Shown here one piece after another: positions 2-13,864 of a stretch of DNA of 64,000 bases; the stretch's first letter is position 1, and each line of letters begins with the position of its first letter. A model generated the notes under the pieces. It was not told the DNA's origin and made no database searches. It worked only from the letters and a program-made list of their open reading frames with translations. Made by a program: the position numbers and the translations under genes. The stretch is from a bacterium (GTDB taxonomy: Bacteria; Desulfobacterota; Deferrisomatia; Deferrisomatales; BM512): assembly GCA_004322275.1 (NCBI GenBank), contig SCTA01000001.1, positions 1 through 64,000 of the forward strand, in the 5' to 3' direction.

Positions 2-3000
2 TCTACCACCTTCACCTACACGGGCGACGTAGCCATAACCGGCACGACGTACAGCGCCTGCGCCACCAACGCCTGCCACAACAACGGCAAGAACGCCGCA
101 CCGCGCACGGCTGCTTACGCATGGGACGCCGCGGTGATAACCAACTGCGACGAATGCCACGGCGACGAATCCGCGACGCTCACCTCACAGTCTCACGTCG
201 CTCACCTTACCGCCGCCACCAACTTCGGAATAACGGTAACCTGCGCCAACTGCCACGCGGCGGCAACGACGGCGACGCACATCAACGGCACGATCAACAT
301 TCCTGCCATGACATACAGCGGCGACGTGCTTGTAACCGGCACGACTTTCGGCAATTGCGGCAACAACACCTGCCACAGGTCCGACGCCTCCGCCGGCACC
401 AACCCGGTAAATATGACCTACACCTGGGGCACCGCCTATGCGAACTGCACGCTGTGCCATAACGCGCCCCCGGCCAACGGCGGTCACGTCAACCACCTTG
501 CCTCCAACGCCATGCCCGGCGCCACGGCCATCAACGAGTGCTACATATGCCACAACGGCACGGCTACGAGCGGCGGCATCGCCAGCGGCGCATCGCACAT
601 AAACTCCACGGACAATCTCGCGTTCAACACCTCGGCGCAATACCAGGCTACGGCGGTCACGACCGCGGGTTCCGGCACAACCACCACCTGCACCAACGTC
701 AAGTGCCACAACGGCGTAGAGACTCCGACCTGGGCCACCACGCCCATCACCTGCGGCAAGTGCCACAACGAAACCTGGACCGCCTTGGGCACCGGCCCGG
801 CTCCGACAGGCAGCGCAGGCGTCGCGGGCAGTCATGCCATACACACCAACAACGACGCAGTATATAACGATTGCGCGGCTTGCCACGCTGGCGCTACGGC
901 TTACACCGCCGTTGGCCCCCTTGCCGGAACTCACCAGAACCTCACCGTCAACGTGAGCATGACGAGTGTTACCTATGCACCCGACGCAAATCCGGGCGGC
1001 ATTAACTACATCGCACCCGGCACCGACAACGGCACCTGCACCTCCGTGGCAGCCGGCTGTCACAACGTTGCCACTCCTGTATGGGGCGGCACCATAAGCG
1101 TTACATGTCTGTCATGCCACGTCGGCACCGAGCCCGCCACCGGCGCCAAACCGATTCCGACGGCCGACGCTACCCCCAACAGGGTCGCCAGCGCCCAGTA
1201 CGCAGGCGTCAGCGCCCTAGGTCACGGCAGGATAACCAATAACTACGCATCCGGCCTCCTCCCCGCGGCACTGACGGACACCACGGCAAGAGACACCACC
1301 AACGGCTGCCTGAAGTGCCACGATCAGGCGGCGGATCACTTCCCGAAGGATACGCTCGACCCCTACCGTCTCGGCGTCCTGGCGGCCACTACCGACAGCC
1401 TCTGCCTCGATACCAACAGGTTCGGCGCAGGCAGCTGCCATGAAGCGACTCAGGCCCAGACCCACTCCAAACTCAACGCCGGCGGCGCCGTACCCGCGAT
1501 CTGGCCCAACGGCGAATACGCCTTCAAGTGCGTTGACTGCCACGACCCGCACGGCGACGCAAACGTTTCCATGATCCGCAGCCACATCTCCGCGCCGACA
1601 TCGACGGCGGATACCAGCTTCGGTTCCGACAGCAACGGCACCCCGGCGGATACGGCCACGCTCTCCGCCGTCACCTTCACCTCCTACACAGGCAACGCGA
1701 CCAACAGCTACGGCGTGAACCTCGCGCCTAACGGCATCTGCGAAGTCTGCCACGTAGACCTTGCCGGTGTAGACTTTTACCGCCGCGCCCAGGCCGAAAA
1801 CAACACCCACAACACCGCCGGCACATGCACCACCTGCCACAAGCATGAGGAAGGCTTCAAGGGAGGCGCTTGCAACGGATGCCACGGCTTCCCGCCGGTA
1901 CTGGCTGATCAAAACTACGCGGGCGGCGGCGGCGCGCACGACGCGCACGTCAGTTTCCTGGCGGATGCCACCGGCGCCCAGTATCCGGCAACTACCTCGT
2001 TCCAGTCGGCCCTGCTGTGCGACCCCTGCCACGGAACCGGTTCCGGCAATACCGCGCACAACGGATCCGTTCAGGGCTCCGGCGCTTGGCCTGTCGCTAC
2101 GAGAACCTTCGTAAACATCGTCGCCAAGACCGGCGCGGATAGCTGGAATGTCGTTACCCCCGCAAGGTACAACGGCGTTGCGATAACCACCTCTGCCGCC
2201 ACCTCCGCGACAGGCATAAATGCGGTTGTATCCGCGGACAACACCGAATGCACGGCGGTTGATTGCCATTCGACGACAGCCGCCGAAGACGCTGAAAATC
2301 CGCCAGTAGTCAACTGGACGGCGATCACCGACACCTCGGCCTACAACGATGGCCTGGCCCGGTCCAAGGTCTGCAAGGCCTGCCACGACAGGACTCCGTC
2401 AAAAATGAAACTCTGGAATACCACGTTCCCGGTAGACGGCACTTACGACGCGGCTGTAGACGGCAACGCGGCCATCAACGCGGCGGACAGCTACTACGGC
2501 AACTTCACCCTGTACGGCAGGGGCGGACACGGCGATGCGGCGATACAGACGGAAGACCCGCTCGTCGATTCCGCCGCGGGCAGGACCACGCCCATAGACT
2601 GCACGGCCTGCCACGCCGCGGCCACGACGACGACCCATTACAACGCCAAGGCGGGCGCCAACCCGAACCGGCTGACGGGCCTCTCCACCGCCTCGACGGC
2701 GGACAACATGGTCGCCCGGTGCCAGGTCTGCCATGCCTCCACTTTCTACGGCAGCACCTCCACCCTCGCTCCCAGGCACCACCCGGCAGGCGACTTCTTT
2801 GCCGCCCCCGCAGGCACTTCGGAAATCATGACCGCGATCTCCGGCACCACCACCTGGGGCGAGGTAGCTCCCCCGGCCGGACATTACGAGCAGAACGCCT
2901 ACGGCTACAACATTAACTATCCCACTGGCGTCGGAAGCGCCAACGTAGACCGGTTCATCGACTACTGGGGTGGTGACTTCGAGACCACAAGAAGCGCCAC

Positions 3001-3250
3001 CAATCCGCCGAGACCCGTCTTCGTGGGCGAGCTCACCTCCGCGTCGCCCAAGGTAACGCTCCCTCTGGCGCAGTACGCAATCGGCGGCGGTACCAGCAAC
3101 AAGATTGTCTGCACCACCTGCCACAACCCGCATGGCACGGATCTCTACGTGTACGACACAACCGCCGGTCATTCGGGTAGAAGCATCGCCGACAACAACA
3201 TGCTCCGCCTGCGTGACGACGACAGCACACTGTGCAACGCCTGCCATTAA
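2..3250 (+). CDS. Large secreted multihaem c-type cytochrome, 3' part (CxxxxCH/CxxCH type)
   Basis: The frame is already open at the left edge, so the gene is 5'-truncated by the window; GTG at 134 is only an internal codon. About 1,080 residues are visible. I count 18 CxxCH haem sites, four CxxxxCH sites (one encoded before position 134), and two looser Cys...CH sites with 6 and 10 residues between the cysteines. Alternating CxxxxCH and CxxCH sites on a Thr/Ala/Asn/Gly-rich backbone is the pattern of the repeated cytochrome domain first described in Geobacter sulfurreducens. The protein ends exactly on a CxxCH. The expected role is electron storage or transfer at the outer surface or in the periplasm; the partner is unknown. 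Signal peptide and total haem number lie outside the window. A strong terminator follows directly. Confidence 0.9.
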   Translation, partial: STTFTYTGDVAITGTTYSACATNACHNNGKNAAPRTAAYAWDAAVITNCDECHGDESATLTSQSHVAHLTAATNFGITVTCANCHAAATTATHINGTINIPAMTYSGDVLVTGTTFGNCGNNTCHRSDASAGTNPVNMTYTWGTAYANCTLCHNAPPANGGHVNHLASNAMPGATAINECYICHNGTATSGGIASGASHINSTDNLAFNTSAQYQATAVTTAGSGTTTTCTNVKCHNGVETPTWATTPITCGKCHNETWTALGTGPAPTGSAGVAGSHAIHTNNDAVYNDCAACHAGATAYTAVGPLAGTHQNLTVNVSMTSVTYAPDANPGGINYIAPGTDNGTCTSVAAGCHNVATPVWGGTISVTCLSCHVGTEPATGAKPIPTADATPNRVASAQYAGVSALGHGRITNNYASGLLPAALTDTTARDTTNGCLKCHDQAADHFPKDTLDPYRLGVLAATTDSLCLDTNRFGAGSCHEATQAQTHSKLNAGGAVPAIWPNGEYAFKCVDCHDPHGDANVSMIRSHISAPTSTADTSFGSDSNGTPADTATLSAVTFTSYTGNATNSYGVNLAPNGICEVCHVDLAGVDFYRRAQAENNTHNTAGTCTTCHKHEEGFKGGACNGCHGFPPVLADQNYAGGGGAHDAHVSFLADATGAQYPATTSFQSALLCDPCHGTGSGNTAHNGSVQGSGAWPVATRTFVNIVAKTGADSWNVVTPARYNGVAITTSAATSATGINAVVSADNTECTAVDCHSTTAAEDAENPPVVNWTAITDTSAYNDGLARSKVCKACHDRTPSKMKLWNTTFPVDGTYDAAVDGNAAINAADSYYGNFTLYGRGGHGDAAIQTEDPLVDSAAGRTTPIDCTACHAAATTTTHYNAKAGANPNRLTGLSTASTADNMVARCQVCHASTFYGSTSTLAPRHHPAGDFFAAPAGTSEIMTAISGTTTWGEVAPPAGHYEQNAYGYNINYPTGVGSANVDRFIDYWGGDFETTRSATNPPRPVFVGELTSASPKVTLPLAQYAIGGGTSNKIVCTTCHNPHGTDLYVYDTTAGHSGRSIADNNMLRLRDDDSTLCNACH

Positions 3251-4238: not shown

Positions 4239-4396
4239 ATTTGGGGATTCCTTCCTTTATTGCCGCTATATTTTTGGGGTGAATAAAACGATTGCCTTCG
4301 CTTGTCCGCCAGCCCCTGGGAGACAGGCGCTTTTATTTCGTGATGACCTGAATTTGACGACACGCAGGATTGCTCTGATTGTATTGGAGATTTCCT

Positions 4397-7300
4397 TTGA
4401 GCGGTGACAGGGAACAACCATTGAGCCCCAAAAAACCATTCTCTCGCCTCGGATTTTCGCTGTTTTCCGGGTGTCTGCTGTCGGCGGCTGTTTCAACCGC
4501 CGCGCTGGCGGTAACTCCAGTCTGGTCGCCGTACCCTCCGGCCGACGGAAGCCATCCCGGCGGCGGGCCGTGGGGGGGAACGGTAACACGGCTGGTCTCG
4601 ACCTATGACGCCTCCGGCAACTCCATTGCCCTGTGGGCGGCGACGGCGGGCGGGATATTCAAATCCATCGACGGCGGCAGTTCCTGGACCCAGTCCCGGA
4701 CCGGGATCCTGGATCTGGACGTTACGTCCGTTGCGGTGTCCCCCCCGGGAGACCGCCTCCTTGCCTCCGTTCACGCTTACGCTTCCATCGACGCCGCAAA
4801 CGACGAGGGCGGCGGCATTTACTTGTCGAACGACGGCGGAGGCAGCTGGCAGAGATTCTCCCCGGGTCTTTTTGAATTTGATTTCTCGATACCCGGCGGG
4901 TTTGTCTCCGTGGCGATCGACCCAACCGACCCCACCCACTTTTTCGCGGCAGCCAATGACGCGGGCAGAAGCGTTACCGGCTACAAGGATGTCATTTTCG
5001 AGTCAAAAGACGGAGGCGTCACCTGGACAGGCCCGCAAACCGACGGCGGGAACGGGCCCCGCGTGGAGCTTGGCGATTCTTACAATATCACCGGGCTTCG
5101 CGCCATTTCCGGCGGCACCCTTTTCTTTTACGGGCGAAGCAAAGAGTTGTACAGGCTGAAAAGCGCCGACCAAAGCCCGTCGCTGATCGGTGCTTTTGTG
5201 GACGGAAGCGGAAATCCCTGCACGGTTGAGGACATCGCCGTCGTCGAAGTTCCTTCCCTGAAAATATACGCCGCGGCGGGAGCTTGCGGCTTGTGGGAGG
5301 GGGTTTACAACCTCACGAACGATAACTTTACCTGGACGAAACGCCAGTCCATTCCGGTCACCGCCAACGGCTACCCGCTGATAACGGCGGTGGGGGTAAC
5401 TCCGGGAGACCCCTCGCATCTCTACTACATGGTTTACGATTATCAGGACGAGGCGGTTTCAGAAATCTACGAGAGCCTTGACGGGGGCGTAACTTCAACC
5501 GGGATATTACTCCCCGAACGGGTAATGAACGTAAAGCAGATCCTTCCGGATGCGGGGGGCTCTTTCCTCGTGGAATCTTTCTCCGGGATTTACCGCCGCG
5601 CCCTCACCGGGAACTATCTTCATTCCAGCAAAGGACTTCGCGCCTTCGAGGCTAACGGTTTTGATTTCAAGCCCGGCGGCTCGGGGAGTTCCGGCGGTCT
5701 CGCCGAGCTTGCCGTCTCAGGCGGCTCCACTTCGTCCAGCAGCGGCATCGGCTGCGGCGGCGTATCCCTCTGGGATTACACCACCGGCTGGAAGCGCGCT
5801 TCGGATCAGTGGTACGACCCCGGGCGGGCAACGAGGCTCATAGCCTACGAAAACGCCCAGAGGCTGTGGCTTTCCGTCGAGGGTTTCAACATCTACGCGG
5901 GAGAAAAATCCCTCGCCACCAACGACATAGCCTGGGGCGAGATGACCCTCGGCATCGGCAGCTCCTCCACTTCGCTTAACACGGTCACTTCGCTTGCCTT
6001 TTCTCCCGACCCTTCCGACGTTTTATACACGGACAAGGCCATTATAGGCGGAACCAGCCTTATTGCGGGCAGGGGAGGGGTTCCTTACTGGCACTCGGGA
6101 AACCAGAGGATCGAGCTGTATCCCGAGGGGTGGAACCTGCCTGCGGGACTCCCCGGCGGGTGGCGGGACTGGCAGAACTGGATTACCCTTGGCGACCCCT
6201 TCAATCCGGGCGGATTTTACACGATAGCGGGCAGCGCCAGGGTAGATCCCCTCAATCAGGCGAATCTCGGCGCTTTTGTCGGCTACGCCGAATATGCGTC
6301 GGTGCCCTCTCTTGTCGAAACGGAATACGGAACGGAGATTTACGACATCTACGTGCCTCTCATCGTCCAGCGCTCGGCCTTTCCCGGCGTGCAGTTCCTG
6401 TCCGCCAGCGCCTCGCCGAATTCCAGCGGCAGCCTTTTGGCAGGGACAATGGGCGACGGGATGTGGAGAACCGCCGACGGCGGCAGAAACTGGAGCAAGG
6501 TCTATCTTCCGGTTATCGGTGACGCGCCCGAGGTTCCCTTCGTTGAAATCGGACCTTTACCCGGCGACGTACTGCTTGGAGCGTACGTAAACGGCAAGGG
6601 ATTTTATCTTTCCGGCGATGGCGGCATAAACTGGCGCTCTTTCGGAGAGGGGTTCGACTTCCCCTCCAGCCTTCCCGGGCTTCGGGCGATGAAATTCACC
6701 CCCGATGGCCGGGCTCTGGTGGCCGCGCTCGGCGGCGCGGGGCTTTGGTCCCTCTACCTCGGAGAGCCTCCCGAAATTTCGATCAATGGGCCTGTAACGG
6801 TCGACGTCGGCTCCACCCTGACCCTCGACATAATCGCTTTCGATCCGGACGGCGACGCCGTGACGCTCTCCTCCAGGATTCTTCCCGACGGCCCCGAAGT
6901 CGCAGGGGCGCATCCCGCCTGGACGGCCGGCAATACTCCCCCGGCGATAGCGTCTCCCGGGGACAAGGTCGTTACCGTGGGAGAGACCCTCTCCTTCGAC
7001 GTTAACGCGACCGACGCTGCCCCCTCCGCCACGATACGCATAACGAGCGGCGACGGTTTTTTCACCGTAAGCGAAGATATACTTCTATCCGCCACCGCCT
7101 CGTCCGTGGGAGTTCAGGCGGTAACCGCCGGGGGCGCGATATTCGACTCCGCTTACCCCAACAAGCCAACCTTCGACGGCAGAACCTTCACCTGGACTCC
7201 GGCTTACGCAGAGGGCGGGATCGACTACGAGGTGACCTTTACAGCCACCGACCTTCAGGGCGAGACGGACGTACAACCGGTACTGATAACCGTAAACAGA

Positions 7301-10300
7301 AAACCGGAGCTGAGTCTGCCTCCCCGGTTCGTATTCACCGTGGGCGCCGCCGAAACACTGGCGCTGCCGATAACCGAACCCGACGGAGACACCGTCTCCC
7401 TCGCCGCTCCGGGATTGCCCGGCTGGCTCACCCTCGATCCCACGGCTCTTACCATCGGCGGAACAGCGCCCTCGGCGGATGGCGGCAAGACCTTCAACCT
7501 GACCCTGACGGCTACCGACCAGCACGGAGCCTCCGCGCAGGGCGCGCTCGGCCTTCTGGTCAATCGCCCTCCCGTGCTTTCCCCGGTGGGCGACAAATAC
7601 ATCAGCGGAAACGAAACCGAGGTTTTCACCGTCTCAGCGACCGATGCTGACGGCGATACCGTGGCAATCAGCCTTTCGCCGCTCCCCTCCGGCGCAACCT
7701 TCGACGGAAGAACCTTCGTCTGGACTCCCGCCGGGTCCGCATATGGAACGAGGACGGTAGTCGTCACCGCTACCGACGAACATGGCGGCGCCGACTCAGA
7801 GACCATTTCCATAACCGTCGAAGAGCGCCCCAACTCGCTCCCCGTCCTTGGCGTCATAGGCTCAAAATTCATCAACGCAGGGAGCCTCCTGACCATATCC
7901 CTGTTCGCGACCGATCCCGACGGCGACCAGATAGTCTATTCGGCGGCCCCCATGCCCGCCGGAGCGAAGATAGAGGGGAACTCCTTCACCTGGACTCCCT
8001 CGGAAGCTGACGGCGGAACTTCGACCCTCACCTTCACCGCTTTTGACGGCAGAGACGGCACGGACACCGAAACGGTGGAGATTACCGTCAACCGCTCCCC
8101 CGCCCTTACCCTGCCGGGTGCTCAAAGCGGCGCTCCGGGGCAGAGCGTTGGATTCACCGTCCTGGTGAGCGACCCGGAAGGCGACCAGACCACGGTAACG
8201 CCGGTGGGGATGCCCTTCGGCGCCTCCTTTGTTTCCGGCACCTTCGCCTGGACTCCGGAGGGTGGGCAAAGCGGCGTCACAAACGTAAAATTCATAGCGC
8301 GCGACAGCTACGGGGCTTCAAGCGAGGGGATCGTACAGATAACGGTCGGCGCGACAAACGCGCCTCCCGTGCTCGCCCCCGTCGGCAACCACATTTACGA
8401 CTGGAGCCAGCCCAGCCTGCAGTTCTGCCTGAGCGCCACGGACCCAGACGGCGACGCGCTGGATTACACGATGACGCCGGTCGAGTTTAACGGCGGGGCC
8501 TCGGCGTTGCCGACGCCCATCGCCGGCGTGACCTTCGACACCAGCGTAAATCCGCCCTGCTTCACCATAGACCAGATGTTTGTCTTCAACCATCTGGATT
8601 ACGCCATCTACCCGACCTACCCCCAGACCCTTACGGTAAAATTCGAGGTGGCCGAGAGCCTGACCGCCGACAAAAAGAGCGACAGCGAGACGGTAGACAT
8701 CATTATCTGGGACGTTCCTCCGGCGAACGCTCCTCCGGCCATTCTCCCCCTCGATCCGAAAACGGCTTTTGTTGGAAGGACGATTTCCTTCGGGGTGGAG
8801 GCCACGGACATCGACGGCGACATCGTCACCGTAACGGCGTCGAACATGCCCGCGTGGGGCTCTTTTGCCTCGAACAGGTTTACCGGCACGCCGCAGCTTG
8901 CCGATCACGGAGCCGTTGCTTCGATAACCTTCACCGCAAGCGACGACAAGGGAAATCAGAGCCAGACAACCGTAGACGTAACGGTAAAGGGCGCTCCCTC
9001 TTTCACCGGTCTTTCAAACAAGGTCATTCCCGTCGGGGAAACCCTGACCTTCACAGTGACTACCGCCGATCTCGACGGGGACGCGGTGGTTGTCACCGCC
9101 GAGGGGCTGCCGGCGGGAGCCACCTTTGACGGCGCGCAGTTCTCCTGGACTCCCGGAGCCTCTTTGGTGGCGCCGGTGCGCTTCACCGCCGCCGACGGCT
9201 TGACCTCCACCGCCCGGACCATAGACATTATGGCCCACAACCCGCCGGTCTTTACGCCCATAGAGGACAAACTGGTCACCGTCGGCTCGCAGCTTAGTTT
9301 CGACGTAGCCCTCGCCGACGCCGATTACGATGTGGTATCCGTCGAAAGCACCGGGCTTCCCGTGGGAGCCCTTTACGCCAACGGGACTTTTTCCTGGGTG
9401 CCCGCCGTGGCGGACGGAGGAGCGGTCGTGGAGGTATCCTTCACGGCGACGGATTTTTACGGCGCTACCGCGACCGTGAGCTTTACGATTACCGTAAACC
9501 GGCTGCCGGTATTTTCTTGCCCGGCCGTATCCACGGCGGTCCTCGGGCTTCCCTTTACCCTCGGCCTCGACGTTCTCGACGCGGATGGCGACGCCGTCAG
9601 CGTTACTCCTCTTACGGCTTTTCCCGGAGATATGAGCTTTAACGCCGTAACGAATACCCTCTCGTGGACACCCGTCACGGAAGACCTCGCGGGAAGCCCC
9701 TACAGCCTTAGATTTCTCGCCGACGACGGTCGCGGCGGAACCATCGAGCACTCTCTCGTCGTCTTCCTGAATTCGCCGCCGGTATTTAACTGTCCTTCAA
9801 GCGTAACCGTAAACGCCGGAGAGCCGCTCGTTCTTGACCTCGGGGTAACGGACGCCGACCTTGAAGAGGTTACAGTCGAAGCCCTCACCGCGCTTCCGGG
9901 AACGATGCTCTTCGACGGAGGTTCGCTCCTGTGGACGCCCACGGCCGCCGATGCCGCAGCGTCACCCTACAACCTCACCTTCAAGGCTACCGACGCCAAT
10001 AACAACGCCGTGACGAAGGACATATCGATTGCGGTCAACAGGATTCCCGTCATTGCCGCTCCCTCCTCCGCAATGGGAATAGTGGGCGAAACCTTTACTC
10101 TGGTGGTGGGCGCGAGCGACGCTGACGGCGACACCGTAACCATATCGGCGGCCACGGGGCTTCTGGCCTCGATGACCTTCGAGGGAAACACCCTTCACTG
10201 GAATCCCGTCGCGGGAGACCTGCCCTCAATGCCCAAAGAAATCACCTTCACGGCCGGAGACGGAAGGGGAGGCGCCGCGCAGCACGTCCTTAGCCTTACC

Positions 10301-10654
10301 CTGAATCAAAGGCCCTACTTTACCTGTGCGCAGACAGTCGACGTTCTCGTCGGCAACGAACTGGTCTACGACGTGACGGTGACCGACCCCGATTCGGACG
10401 CCGTAACCGTAACCGCTACCTCGACTCTCCCGGCGGGCATGACCCTTCAGGACGGAGTTCTTTCCTGGACGCCTGTCAGGGCGGACAAGGAAGGCTCACC
10501 CTATACCGTTGACCTCGTGGCGACCGACGAACACGGCGCCGCCGCAACCTGGGCCCTCACCATAAACGTCTCGGAGATAGCCTCGGGCGGCGGTGGCGGC
10601 GGAGGTGGAGGCGGATGCTTCCTGGAAGCCCTGGGCGGTTCTATTTGGCGTTGA
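4397..10654 (+). CDS. Giant secreted BNR-propeller plus Ig/cadherin-like repeat protein
   Basis: I chose TTG at 4397 because GGAGA sits 6 nt upstream; the in-frame TTG at 4379 has no such site. This gives 2085 residues. A signal peptide covers roughly residues 10-40. Residues about 50-800 carry BNR-type Asp-box motifs of the form S-x-D-G-G-x-x-W (at least five), typical of sialidase/VPS10-like beta-propellers. From about 800 to 2065 there are some 14 repeats of 80-95 residues with a D-x-D-G-D-x-V motif and an F-x-W-T-P strand, resembling putative Ig (He_PIG) or cadherin-like domains; the Asp-rich loops probably bind calcium. The tail is SGGGGGGGGGGCF and 11 more residues, reminiscent of Gly-rich CFI-box C-termini that anchor proteins outside the cell. 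The likely role is surface adhesion or matrix. The end overlaps the next gene by 40 nt. Confidence 0.85.
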   Translation: MSGDREQPLSPKKPFSRLGFSLFSGCLLSAAVSTAALAVTPVWSPYPPADGSHPGGGPWGGTVTRLVSTYDASGNSIALWAATAGGIFKSIDGGSSWTQSRTGILDLDVTSVAVSPPGDRLLASVHAYASIDAANDEGGGIYLSNDGGGSWQRFSPGLFEFDFSIPGGFVSVAIDPTDPTHFFAAANDAGRSVTGYKDVIFESKDGGVTWTGPQTDGGNGPRVELGDSYNITGLRAISGGTLFFYGRSKELYRLKSADQSPSLIGAFVDGSGNPCTVEDIAVVEVPSLKIYAAAGACGLWEGVYNLTNDNFTWTKRQSIPVTANGYPLITAVGVTPGDPSHLYYMVYDYQDEAVSEIYESLDGGVTSTGILLPERVMNVKQILPDAGGSFLVESFSGIYRRALTGNYLHSSKGLRAFEANGFDFKPGGSGSSGGLAELAVSGGSTSSSSGIGCGGVSLWDYTTGWKRASDQWYDPGRATRLIAYENAQRLWLSVEGFNIYAGEKSLATNDIAWGEMTLGIGSSSTSLNTVTSLAFSPDPSDVLYTDKAIIGGTSLIAGRGGVPYWHSGNQRIELYPEGWNLPAGLPGGWRDWQNWITLGDPFNPGGFYTIAGSARVDPLNQANLGAFVGYAEYASVPSLVETEYGTEIYDIYVPLIVQRSAFPGVQFLSASASPNSSGSLLAGTMGDGMWRTADGGRNWSKVYLPVIGDAPEVPFVEIGPLPGDVLLGAYVNGKGFYLSGDGGINWRSFGEGFDFPSSLPGLRAMKFTPDGRALVAALGGAGLWSLYLGEPPEISINGPVTVDVGSTLTLDIIAFDPDGDAVTLSSRILPDGPEVAGAHPAWTAGNTPPAIASPGDKVVTVGETLSFDVNATDAAPSATIRITSGDGFFTVSEDILLSATASSVGVQAVTAGGAIFDSAYPNKPTFDGRTFTWTPAYAEGGIDYEVTFTATDLQGETDVQPVLITVNRKPELSLPPRFVFTVGAAETLALPITEPDGDTVSLAAPGLPGWLTLDPTALTIGGTAPSADGGKTFNLTLTATDQHGASAQGALGLLVNRPPVLSPVGDKYISGNETEVFTVSATDADGDTVAISLSPLPSGATFDGRTFVWTPAGSAYGTRTVVVTATDEHGGADSETISITVEERPNSLPVLGVIGSKFINAGSLLTISLFATDPDGDQIVYSAAPMPAGAKIEGNSFTWTPSEADGGTSTLTFTAFDGRDGTDTETVEITVNRSPALTLPGAQSGAPGQSVGFTVLVSDPEGDQTTVTPVGMPFGASFVSGTFAWTPEGGQSGVTNVKFIARDSYGASSEGIVQITVGATNAPPVLAPVGNHIYDWSQPSLQFCLSATDPDGDALDYTMTPVEFNGGASALPTPIAGVTFDTSVNPPCFTIDQMFVFNHLDYAIYPTYPQTLTVKFEVAESLTADKKSDSETVDIIIWDVPPANAPPAILPLDPKTAFVGRTISFGVEATDIDGDIVTVTASNMPAWGSFASNRFTGTPQLADHGAVASITFTASDDKGNQSQTTVDVTVKGAPSFTGLSNKVIPVGETLTFTVTTADLDGDAVVVTAEGLPAGATFDGAQFSWTPGASLVAPVRFTAADGLTSTARTIDIMAHNPPVFTPIEDKLVTVGSQLSFDVALADADYDVVSVESTGLPVGALYANGTFSWVPAVADGGAVVEVSFTATDFYGATATVSFTITVNRLPVFSCPAVSTAVLGLPFTLGLDVLDADGDAVSVTPLTAFPGDMSFNAVTNTLSWTPVTEDLAGSPYSLRFLADDGRGGTIEHSLVVFLNSPPVFNCPSSVTVNAGEPLVLDLGVTDADLEEVTVEALTALPGTMLFDGGSLLWTPTAADAAASPYNLTFKATDANNNAVTKDISIAVNRIPVIAAPSSAMGIVGETFTLVVGASDADGDTVTISAATGLLASMTFEGNTLHWNPVAGDLPSMPKEITFTAGDGRGGAAQHVLSLTLNQRPYFTCAQTVDVLVGNELVYDVTVTDPDSDAVTVTATSTLPAGMTLQDGVLSWTPVRADKEGSPYTVDLVATDEHGAAATWALTINVSEIASGGGGGGGGGGCFLEALGGSIWR

Positions 10655-12420
10655 GGACGGCTCTGGCTCTCGCCGGAGCCCTCCTGACCTTTTCTGTCTC
10701 CTTTGCCGGTCCCTTCGGCGGGTCGGTAAACTCCATACTTCTCGACAAAGACGAGGTGACGCCGCTTTATGCGGCGACGGAACGCGGGCTCTTTTCCTTT
10801 GGAGGAGGGAAATGGTCCCGTGTGCCCGCTTTCGGCGTGAACCGGGTGCGCTCGGTCCAGCGCGCCGGAAAAGCCTTTGTTGCCCTCAAGTCCCTCGGCG
10901 ATCTGTACGTCGGAGGAGGTGAGGATAAATGGCGTCCCTCCCGAACGGGACTTGAAGGCGCAACCGGCCACCTTGTCGATGAGATGAACACCATCACGGT
11001 AGACGCCTCCAACCCCAAACGGATCTACATGGGAAGCGCCGGGAAGGGGCCCTTCGTTACCCCCAATCAGGGGCGCGACTGGGATATCCTGTGGACCGGC
11101 CTTGAGGAGCGGCCCCCTGCCGCCGGGCAGGTCAGGGCCATTCTCTCTCCAAGAGAGCAGCGCCCCCTTATCATGGGCACCGAAGGGGACGGACTTTTTT
11201 ACTGGCGGGACAAAAGCTGGCGCTCTTTCGGTGAGGGTCTTCCCCAAAACCTCCGGGTCATGTCTCTGGCGGAAGATCCCGGCAACCCCGATCATCTGGC
11301 GATGGGCACGGGCGAAGGGCTCTGGGAATCGGCCGACGGCGCGAAAAGCTGGAAACTGCTCCGAAAAGGGGAGTTTAAACACGTAAACGTCGTTTCGATA
11401 GGATACGACGGCGCGATCCTTGGATTTTTCCCCGGCGAGGGGTTCGTCGTCGCGCGGGGGGGAAAAGCCGGAAAAATTCAAAAGGACCAACACCGCTACG
11501 TTCTCACTCTTACGCCTCACAAGGGCGGGGGATGGTACGCCGGGCTCAGGGACGACGGTATTGTAAAAATCGACGCAGAGGGCCAGGACGCGGGTTTTCT
11601 GAACGAAGGGCTTCTGGCCACCCAGATATATTCCATCCACACCGGGAAAGAGCCCGGAACCTTCTGGTGCGGGGACGCCAACGGCATGTTTTTCTCCCGC
11701 GACAAGGGGGTTACCTGGGAGCCCCGTGACAGCGGCCTCGTGGTCGGAGCCTCCAACGTAATCCTGGAGGACGGGGGCGAATACTTCATGGGCAGCCACG
11801 GCCTCGGCGTATACCTCTGGGACGAAGCGGCGGGGAAGTGGCTGGAGCGCATCCTGGGGCTCGGCACCTCAAACACCATCTACTCTTTCGTGAAAGACCC
11901 CAAAGGGCGCTTTTTCGTCGGCACGGAGGGGGGGATTCTCCGCTCCGATGACCGCGCGGGCAACTGGGTTAAAAAGCCGGAAGGACTCCCCGCGTCCAAC
12001 AAGTGGTTTCTGGCGGCCGAACCCGGTGAAAACGGCGGGCTCTGGGCGGCCTCCTCGGCGGGGCTCTACTATACCTCCGACGGCGGCGACAGCTGGAAAA
12101 GCGTAAAGTCCGGCGATTTAGGAAGAGTGAAACACATCGATGGAAAACTCTACCTCTCAAGGGCGGCGAGGGAGGTGATCGAGTGGGACGGGAGGGAGGG
12201 GATTCTTCTCTTCACGGCCCCTCAGAACGATTACGTAAACGATTTTGTCTTCGTGGGCAAGACGCTTATAGTGGCCACGAGCAAGGGACTCTGGGACGGG
12301 GAAAACGAAAAAAAGCCCCTGTGGGGAGAAGCCGGCGTGTTTACCCTCTATGAAACGGGCGACGGCCGGATTTACGCGGGCACTGACGGCATGGGCGTGA
12401 AATCGCTCAGGATACGGTGA
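10615..12420 (+). CDS. Secreted BNR/VPS10-like beta-propeller protein
   Basis: The product is 601 residues. The ATG at 10615 lies inside the last 40 nt of the giant upstream gene, in another frame. The GGAGG inside that gene's glycine-codon tract acts as its ribosome site, so translation is probably coupled. The first 31 residues form a signal peptide ending near SFA-GP. The rest carries Asp-box-like motifs (ESADGAKSW, SRDKGVTW, TSDGGDSW), as in the N-terminal propeller of the giant protein, so the two are probably related by domain duplication. No sialidase catalytic residues were identified; binding or scaffolding is more likely than hydrolysis. It is probably secreted together with, and may bind, its neighbour (inferred). 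Confidence 0.8.
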   Translation: MLPGSPGRFYLALRTALALAGALLTFSVSFAGPFGGSVNSILLDKDEVTPLYAATERGLFSFGGGKWSRVPAFGVNRVRSVQRAGKAFVALKSLGDLYVGGGEDKWRPSRTGLEGATGHLVDEMNTITVDASNPKRIYMGSAGKGPFVTPNQGRDWDILWTGLEERPPAAGQVRAILSPREQRPLIMGTEGDGLFYWRDKSWRSFGEGLPQNLRVMSLAEDPGNPDHLAMGTGEGLWESADGAKSWKLLRKGEFKHVNVVSIGYDGAILGFFPGEGFVVARGGKAGKIQKDQHRYVLTLTPHKGGGWYAGLRDDGIVKIDAEGQDAGFLNEGLLATQIYSIHTGKEPGTFWCGDANGMFFSRDKGVTWEPRDSGLVVGASNVILEDGGEYFMGSHGLGVYLWDEAAGKWLERILGLGTSNTIYSFVKDPKGRFFVGTEGGILRSDDRAGNWVKKPEGLPASNKWFLAAEPGENGGLWAASSAGLYYTSDGGDSWKSVKSGDLGRVKHIDGKLYLSRAAREVIEWDGREGILLFTAPQNDYVNDFVFVGKTLIVATSKGLWDGENEKKPLWGEAGVFTLYETGDGRIYAGTDGMGVKSLRIR

Positions 12421-12447: not shown

Positions 12448-12476
12448 TTGAAAAAAGAATATTTGTGGTCTAAAGT
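12448..12476 (+). promoter_or_regulatory. Predicted sigma-70 promoter of the 20-codon peptide gene
   Basis: TTGAAA (12448-12453), 17-bp spacer, TAAAGT (12471-12476). The start codon lies about 50 nt downstream. The same type of pair precedes acnA and the gene at 46044. Confidence 0.45.
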
Positions 12477-12527
12477 ATAAAAAAGCCGGTAGAAAATTCC
12501 GTCAACTACTTTCGCAGAGGAAACGCC

Positions 12528-12590
12528 ATGAAAAAGACAACCTACGTTAAGCCCCGCGTCATCGGCGCATCCACCGTACACCCCTGCTGA
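12528..12590 (+). CDS. 20-residue peptide of unknown function (possible RiPP precursor)
   Basis: ATG with AGAGGA 6 nt upstream, 20 codons, then TGA; a perfect terminator palindrome begins 18 nt after the stop. The peptide is MKKTTYVKPRVIGASTVHPC. A Lys-rich start followed by Y-x-x-P-x-V resembles the leader motif bound by RiPP recognition elements in lasso-peptide and radical-SAM peptide systems, and a C-terminal His-Pro-Cys would suit modification or thioether formation. That is inference: no maturase, PqqD-like protein or transporter lies in the window, and I cannot assign a named family. Its own promoter, ribosome site and terminator, all in a 190-bp unit, argue that it is a real, separately expressed gene. 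An expressed leader or spurious ORF is the alternative. Confidence 0.5.
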   Translation: MKKTTYVKPRVIGASTVHPC

Positions 12591-12608
12591 AAAGCAAATA
12601 GCGAAATC

Positions 12609-12638
12609 AAAAAAGGGCCGGATATCCGGCCCTTTTTT
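12609..12638. terminator. Bidirectional terminator between the peptide gene and the decahaem cytochrome
   Basis: Perfect palindrome with A6 on the left, a GGGCCGGATATCCGGCCC core and T6 on the right. It can end transcription from both the plus-strand peptide gene and the minus-strand cytochrome gene. Confidence 0.85.
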
Positions 12639-12657
12639 ATTCCCCTGAGATACCTGA

Positions 12658-13770
12658 TCAATCGTAGTGGCATCTTTCGCAGAATTTCTTCTGCTCCTGG
12701 CTGTTTTCAAAGATATTTCTGGTCGTTATGTCCTTCCGGCCGTGAACCGTATGGCAGCTTATGCAGTTCATCGGACGGATTTTGCGCGCGGCGTCCGCCT
12801 TGTATGAAACCGGGTGGTTGTGCATCTCCGCGTGTTCTCCCTCCCTGACGTGCTCATGGCATTCGAGGCACATCTCCTCGACAGCGTCCTTTTTCAGAAA
12901 GCCGGGATTGTTCGCGCCGTGGGAGACGTGGCAGGCGTTGCAGGGGTTGTCGGCGTGAAGCCCCTCGGTCATATTCTGGTTGACGGTCTCGTAGTGGCAG
13001 CGGGCGCAGAGGTCTTTTATCTGTTCCTGCTCCAGCAGCTTTTTAAAGCCCGCGTGAGGGGTGTGGCAGGTATTGCAGCGGTCCACGGCGAGGGGGCCGT
13101 GGATGAACTGCTTCGAGGTGATCTCCTTTGCAATGTAATCGTCGTGACAGGTTCCGCAGCTCTGCTTTTCACCGTCGTTGACGGTGAAGCGGGAGGGCGC
13201 GTACTTCGGATCGTGGCAGTAGAGGCAGGTGAAGCCTCCGGCGGGCCTGTGAACCTCCTCGCCCGAGATTATGTCGCGGTGGCAGGAGGTGCAAAGAACG
13301 CCGGTGGGGAGCTTTCTGTCCACGGTTTCGAGGTCGGGGGAGAGCTCGTGGCAGCCGGAGCAGTTCTTTTCCAGTTCCGGGACGTGGAAAATGAAGGTTT
13401 TGGCGGCCGTATCCATCACTTTTCTGGTCGAGGACGCGGGAATCCTGTAAATGCTCAGGGATTTTATCCTCTGTTCGTTGGAAGGATCCACCCAGGTGAA
13501 TTTGTTAAGCCCCTCATTGAGCGGCAGGAGGAGGTGGACAAGGTCGGCGTCGTCTCCGGGCACCTTGTACCCTTCCTTGAACTGCTCCTTTTCTCCCCGC
13601 AGGACTACAGGAGAGAACCCCGGCGGAACCTTATAGATCACCATCGCCGATTTGGTGGAAAGGACCGCCTTGTCGAAGGGCAGCTCGATTGTGACCGAAG
13701 GTTCGGCCGCAAGCGAGGAAGCCGGGACGAAAGCCAAAACCCCGATAAGCAATGCAAGAAATCTTTTCAT
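12658..13770 (-). CDS. Secreted decahaem c-type cytochrome (doubled CxxCH type)
   Basis: I chose the ATG at 13770 because GGGAG lies 7 nt upstream and it starts a clean signal peptide (MKRFLALLIGVLAF..., cleavage near SLA-AE); the longer frame up to 13815 adds 15 unlikely residues. The product is 370 residues. Residues 20-130 form a haem-free, beta-rich N-terminal part. The remaining two thirds hold ten CxxCH sites in closely spaced pairs with extra histidines between them, as in doubled-CxxCH cytochromes where bis-His haems are chained. The protein ends two residues after its last haem site. Role: periplasmic electron transfer, possibly feeding the secreted cytochromes upstream. It is divergent from acnA. 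Confidence 0.88.
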   Translation of the reverse strand: MKRFLALLIGVLAFVPASSLAAEPSVTIELPFDKAVLSTKSAMVIYKVPPGFSPVVLRGEKEQFKEGYKVPGDDADLVHLLLPLNEGLNKFTWVDPSNEQRIKSLSIYRIPASSTRKVMDTAAKTFIFHVPELEKNCSGCHELSPDLETVDRKLPTGVLCTSCHRDIISGEEVHRPAGGFTCLYCHDPKYAPSRFTVNDGEKQSCGTCHDDYIAKEITSKQFIHGPLAVDRCNTCHTPHAGFKKLLEQEQIKDLCARCHYETVNQNMTEGLHADNPCNACHVSHGANNPGFLKKDAVEEMCLECHEHVREGEHAEMHNHPVSYKADAARKIRPMNCISCHTVHGRKDITTRNIFENSQEQKKFCERCHYD

Positions 13771-13864
13771 CAAACACTCCCTCGAAGACGAAAAACCAAA
13801 GCCTCCGGTTGCCATTGCGCTACAATTTTAGTACCCTTCAATACCCCGATGCGCAAGCGCAATA

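Follow-up and report, generated by a model that had tools for sequence, protein, structure and literature searches.

RiPP precursors that have a PqqD-type recognition protein and a SPASM radical SAM enzyme as partners are a known kind. In the mycofactocin system (MftA/MftB/MftC), the modification sits at the C-terminal residues of the precursor, and the C terminus of MftA is Val-Tyr. For the GeoRSP system (TIGR04302/TIGR04303/TIGR04304), a literature search, of incomplete coverage so that an earlier mention is possible, found no paper. Because in addition no Pfam or NCBIfam model matches the peptide described below, the substrate of GeoRSP appears to be unnamed so far.

The DNA analysed here is a stretch of 64,000 nucleotides (the window) with a gene for a 20-residue peptide, a candidate substrate for this radical SAM system, of which only the enzymes are known. 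In one locus, L066, the peptide lies between TIGR04303 and TIGR04304, and its co-occurrence with GeoRSP is near perfect, but most copies, including that of the window, lie away from the maturase. Mycofactocin likewise has a short precursor, a PqqD-type recognition protein, and a SPASM radical SAM enzyme, and among other families MftC scores best with the maturase of the window's genome (207 bits). In contrast, the GeoRSP peptide ends in His-Pro-Cys and the precursors are multiple and dispersed; identity with MftA was rejected, as all copies read end in HPC and not in Val-Tyr. A PqqD-like recognition protein is shared with PQQ biosynthesis (PqqA/PqqD/PqqE), and the solved structure closest to the maturase by sequence is PqqE (6c8v), although the peptide has no Glu/Tyr pair. 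The YxxPx[V/I] motif is that of lasso leaders and their discrete RREs (TbiB1), but the putative core has only about 7 residues. A lasso peptide was rejected, with no B2 protease or C cyclase among the L066 cassette genes. The dispersal of so small a precursor behind giant cytochromes makes this an unusual variant.

A conserved short gene in the window

The peptide gene and its surroundings comprise the following features.

10615 to 12420, + strand: Reg_prop/BNR-type propeller protein of 601 residues, the upstream partner, with a hydrophobic, export-like N terminus
12448 to 12476, + strand: promoter-like TTGAAA-17-TAAAGT, a sigma-70-like consensus match (9/12), uncertain
12516 to 12523, + strand: ribosome-binding site AGAGGAAA upstream of the peptide open reading frame
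12528 to 12590, + strand: predicted precursor peptide gene MKKTTYVKPRVIGASTVHPC, ATG to TGC TGA, 20 codons, intact
about 12609 to 12639, no strand assigned: terminator palindrome, probably bidirectional, between the peptide gene and the convergent cytochrome gene
12658 to 13815, - strand: multiheme c-type cytochrome (Paired_CXXCH_1, Cytochrome_C7), convergent to the peptide gene

An earlier note on this DNA had described a stand-alone peptide gene with its own promoter, ribosome site, and terminator. The ribosome site is present, and the claimed terminator corresponds to a perfect palindrome, AAAAAAGGGCCGG-ATAT-CCGGCCCTTTTTT, 3' of the gene, with a folding z score of -4.35 against shuffled sequences. 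A simple terminator scan gave no match at this palindrome, probably because its T-run pairs with its A-run. The promoter is a consensus match only. A separate transcription unit is uncertain: the stop codon of the propeller gene on the same strand lies only 107 bp before the peptide start, and copies in relatives that lie away from a maturase gene usually follow a same-strand gene at about 60 bp, so that the end of an operon is an equally possible place for the peptide gene. Rfam gave no match over the window, so a known riboswitch or RNA element does not explain the peptide unit, and a tblastn search of a plasmid collection with the peptide found no match. The order propeller, peptide, convergent cytochrome, and aconitase is kept in another genus, where the identities are 40, 36, and 66% for the propeller, cytochrome, and aconitase and 80% for the peptide.

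Farther upstream on the + strand, the window starts with a large multiheme cytochrome with MtrC/MtrF-like domains (2 to 3247). It also contains a protein of 2091 residues (4379 to 10654) with repeated Ig/cadherin-like segments, as judged by eye. The C terminus of the latter is (G)10-CFLEALGGSIWR, a similar end, GGGGGGGCFLQMLPR, is found in an open reading frame of locus L034, and this Gly-rich Cys end is possibly a sorting tail.

The peptide belongs to a family of 17–21 residues with the pattern M-(K/R)n-[YF]xxP-x-[VI]-V-G-x3-VHPC-stop. The earlier note had suggested looking for amino acid conservation in relatives, and a tblastn-like search found it: the peptide is present in 15 of 59 related genomes, often in several copies, with best E values per genome mostly from 1e-4 to 1e-7. 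A degenerate DNA pattern run over named genomes gave at least 118 stretches with the peptide, partly from the same genomes as the first search, and the two together yielded at least 137 distinct copies that were read. Among the matches listed, the hosts are Desulfuromonadales, Geobacter, Pelotalea, Geomobilimonas, Geoalkalibacter, Deferrisomatales, and Nitrospirota; the cultured strains Geomobilimonas luticola JCM 17780 and Pelotalea chapellei DSM 13688 are among them. One copy (L085) lies in a contig labelled Phycisphaerae, which may be misbinned; that genome has no GeoRSP maturase.

Because Y, K, P, G, V, H, P, C, and the stop were prescribed by the degenerate pattern, their invariance is partly built in. 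An unbiased profile search recovered extra copies with altered leaders, for example MKKIRFAAPKVVGSSTVHPC and MKKRYVPPRVVGSAAVHPC; the leaders vary ([YF]xxP), yet all strong copies read end in VHPC. Third codon positions vary freely (pN/pS about 0.23), and strong purine-rich ribosome sites precede nearly all homologous copies. The peptide family is thus a real and strongly conserved gene, of a size under the usual gene-calling limits.

Linkage to the GeoRSP maturase

The proposal that relatives be scanned for radical SAM/SPASM or PqqD-like genes near the peptide proved fruitful. Among the 137 listed copies, 30 have a GeoRSP-like radical SAM/SPASM gene directly upstream, usually with a gene for a PqqD-type recognition protein ahead of it. 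These 30 loci match the NCBIfam GeoRSP system (TIGR04303, TIGR04302), and TIGR04304, the GeoRSP SPASM protein, comes after the peptide where read. The order in L066 is YedE, PqqD, radical SAM enzyme, peptide, SPASM protein, and cysteine desulfurase. The radical SAM enzyme of L066 scores 432 bits with TIGR04303, whereas its PqqD (TIGR04302, 94.7 against 100 bits) and TIGR04304 protein (109 against 300 bits) fall under the curated cut-offs, and the radical SAM enzyme of the window's own genome reaches 399.1 bits against the TIGR04303 cut-off of 400. At its edges, GeoRSP membership therefore rests on similarity and gene order. The TIGR04304 protein of L066 has no CxxxCxxC within its first 60 residues. 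The L066 cassette extras are the YedE-type sulfur/selenium transporter, a PhnD-like binding protein, a TPR protein, a beta-helix protein, and the cysteine desulfurase.

No GeoRSP radical SAM gene was detected in the DNA read near the other 107 of the 137 listed copies (orphans), the window's included, some of these stretches ending early at contig ends. The earlier note had correctly seen no maturase next to the window copy; the genome has its GeoRSP cassette on a different contig (G000:C41), where a second peptide copy forms part of locus L021, one of the 30 with an adjacent maturase. In Geobacter sp. AOG1, the order is GeoRSP cassette, multiheme cytochrome, and peptide. The GeoRSP neighborhood of this strain (L176, 14683 to 16469) also has ResB-like and membrane transport-like genes, as judged by eye, and L173 is similar.

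Peptide and maturase occur together across genomes. Among 345 genomes of the window's phylum, 26 have both, 2 the peptide only, 1 the maturase only, and 316 neither (p = 1e-35). For 148 genomes of Nitrospirota the corresponding numbers are 10, 3, 0, and 135 (p = 3e-13), both p values being optimistic since the genomes are phylogenetically related. Within the first phylum by itself, the pattern extends over 11 families. The mismatches in the two surveys, five peptide genomes in which no maturase was detected and one maturase genome (G009) in which no peptide was detected, may be explained by incomplete assemblies.

Among solved structures, the GeoRSP PqqD comes closest to TbiB1 (5v1u/5v1v), a recognition protein for lasso peptides. 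The leaders that discrete lasso RREs bind have the form [Y/W]xxPx[L/V/I/F/A] (PMC13381572), and PqqD has been placed among the RREs whose target sequences are W/Y/LxxP/L/I (PMC12710340). The leader-like YVKPRV of the window peptide, which ends in VHPC, is a YxxPx[V/I] sequence and fits the lasso-RRE motif, and [YF]xxPx[V/I] is present in the peptide copies read. Judged by sequence, the peptide appears to carry the type of leader motif that PqqD- or lasso-type RREs bind.

The peptide as a candidate GeoRSP precursor

We consider the window peptide to be a precursor, that is a RiPP substrate, of the GeoRSP radical SAM system, with a probability of about 0.85. The earlier note had likened the YxxP motif and the terminal Cys to the leaders and cores of ribosomally made modified peptides, and this guess is supported by the conservation, the 30 maturase-adjacent loci, and the co-occurrence in two phyla. 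The N-terminal YxKPxV would serve as the leader motif that is bound by the PqqD-type recognition protein, and the C-terminal S/T-x-x-VHPC would form the core. The radical SAM/SPASM enzyme TIGR04303, presumably assisted by the SPASM protein TIGR04304, would modify the core, probably at or next to the C-terminal Cys. We infer chemistry at this end from the invariant C-terminal Cys and from the similarity of the enzyme to those of mycofactocin and PQQ (PqqE). The sulfur/selenium supply module in the GeoRSP cassette suggests sulfur chemistry. The window copy itself is probably an orphan precursor that would be matured in trans by the cassette on G000:C41.

The invariant C terminus right at the stop codon of so short an open reading frame would also suit a regulatory leader or arrest peptide, whose nascent VHPC end stalls the ribosome and controls a neighboring gene. 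We regard this as highly improbable, because a terminator and then a convergent gene come after the window copy, and no regulated gene lies directly downstream on the same strand. More generally, the genes downstream of the copies differ in strand and distance, a terminator-like hairpin lies within 110 nucleotides of the stop in 73 of 105 orphans (a count made with no shuffled control), and ribosome arrest would leave unexplained why the peptide occurs together with a radical SAM enzyme that modifies peptides. Reading the TGA as selenocysteine would make the peptide a selenopeptide, similar to the thio(seleno)oxazole (SbtA) precursors, and could account for the TGC-TGA end of the window copy and for two genes of GeoRSP cassettes, that of the putative YedE-type selenium transporter and the one that resembles desulfurases or selenocysteine lyases. 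This reading is scarcely credible given the stop codons, which are TGA in 81, TAA in 49, and TAG in 7 of the 137 listed copies; TAA or TAG directly follows the Cys codon in 56. Since all three stop codons are used, the last residue is cysteine. This rules out selenocysteine encoded at the TGA stop, as distinct from selenium introduced post-translationally. The loci were also searched for a variant with another last codon, and no family member was found.

Decayed starts in some Deferrisomatales copies, and the duplication of units of partner plus peptide in one genome, might be expected of a repeated element or chance open reading frame without peptide function. The protein level conservation with synonymous change, the strong ribosome sites, and the maturase linkage make this explanation next to negligible. 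A mobile repeat was rejected for the window's genome, where the DNA flanking the two copies has no detectable match. A variant that keeps the peptide as a GeoRSP precursor would make its product a free signal or self-regulating pheromone and not a redox or metal ligand. Several scattered precursor copies per genome with a single maturase are consistent with such a signal, as is the response regulator gene that precedes the peptide at three Nitrospirota loci (L042, L075, L126). It is nevertheless unlikely, as the core is near-constant across phyla, unlike strain-specific signals, multiheme cytochromes are the dominant company of the peptide, and no dedicated exporter or sensor was recognized in the annotated L066 cassette.

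Partners of the orphan copies and a possible role of the product

In 74 cases, a gene on the same strand ends within 200 bp upstream of an orphan, with a median gap of about 62 bp. At least five CxxCH motifs are present in 35 of these 74 genes, compared with 23 of 428 other open reading frames of the same loci (p = 2e-18), and an export-like (signal- or membrane-like) N terminus in 25 of 32 complete partners, compared with 174 of 386 open reading frames (p = 4e-4), both p values being optimistic because the loci are phylogenetically related. The partners have up to 51 CxxCH motifs. The location next to cytochromes that had been remarked on for the window is thus a pattern that recurs in the family. 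Other partners are FG-GAP/ASPIC proteins, Big_1 proteins with a biotinyl-lipoyl-like domain, carboxypeptidase-regulatory proteins, and propeller proteins; some, namely HD-domain proteins, response regulators, and a cobalamin-type radical SAM protein, are neither cytochromes nor exported. The idea that all upstream partners share a C-terminal tag was rejected, as a W[NG]..TxW-like end occurs in about 24 of the 74 and is absent from many.

As a GeoRSP product, the matured peptide might be a small thiolate/imidazole redox or metal ligand or cofactor for extracytoplasmic redox proteins, above all the giant multiheme cytochromes. That it serves such proteins is a tentative suggestion, drawn solely from gene company. 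A more specific proposal, possible if somewhat doubtful, is a peptide-derived redox or metal cofactor for extracellular electron transfer. Cytochrome or surface-protein operons would carry their own precursor copy, one radical SAM cassette would mature the copies in trans, and the product, made in step with the cytochrome, would act as a new ligand, cap, or assembly factor. By its genomic company, the peptide family connects a RiPP pathway with the giant multiheme cytochromes found in metal reducers, and a peptide of 18–20 residues makes the GeoRSP chemistry directly testable.

Two kinds of partner stand apart. The cobalamin-type radical SAM protein, recognized by eye, is encoded directly upstream of one Geobacter orphan (L032, 6724 to 8238, - strand), several kb from the GeoRSP cassette; it was rejected as a general partner, since it is not directly upstream of other copies. 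In L026, L027, L036, and relatives, the peptide follows large exported Big_1 Ig-like proteins that end in a biotinyl/lipoyl-like domain, which is odd for an extracellular protein, and a partner-peptide unit is duplicated within one genome (G006).
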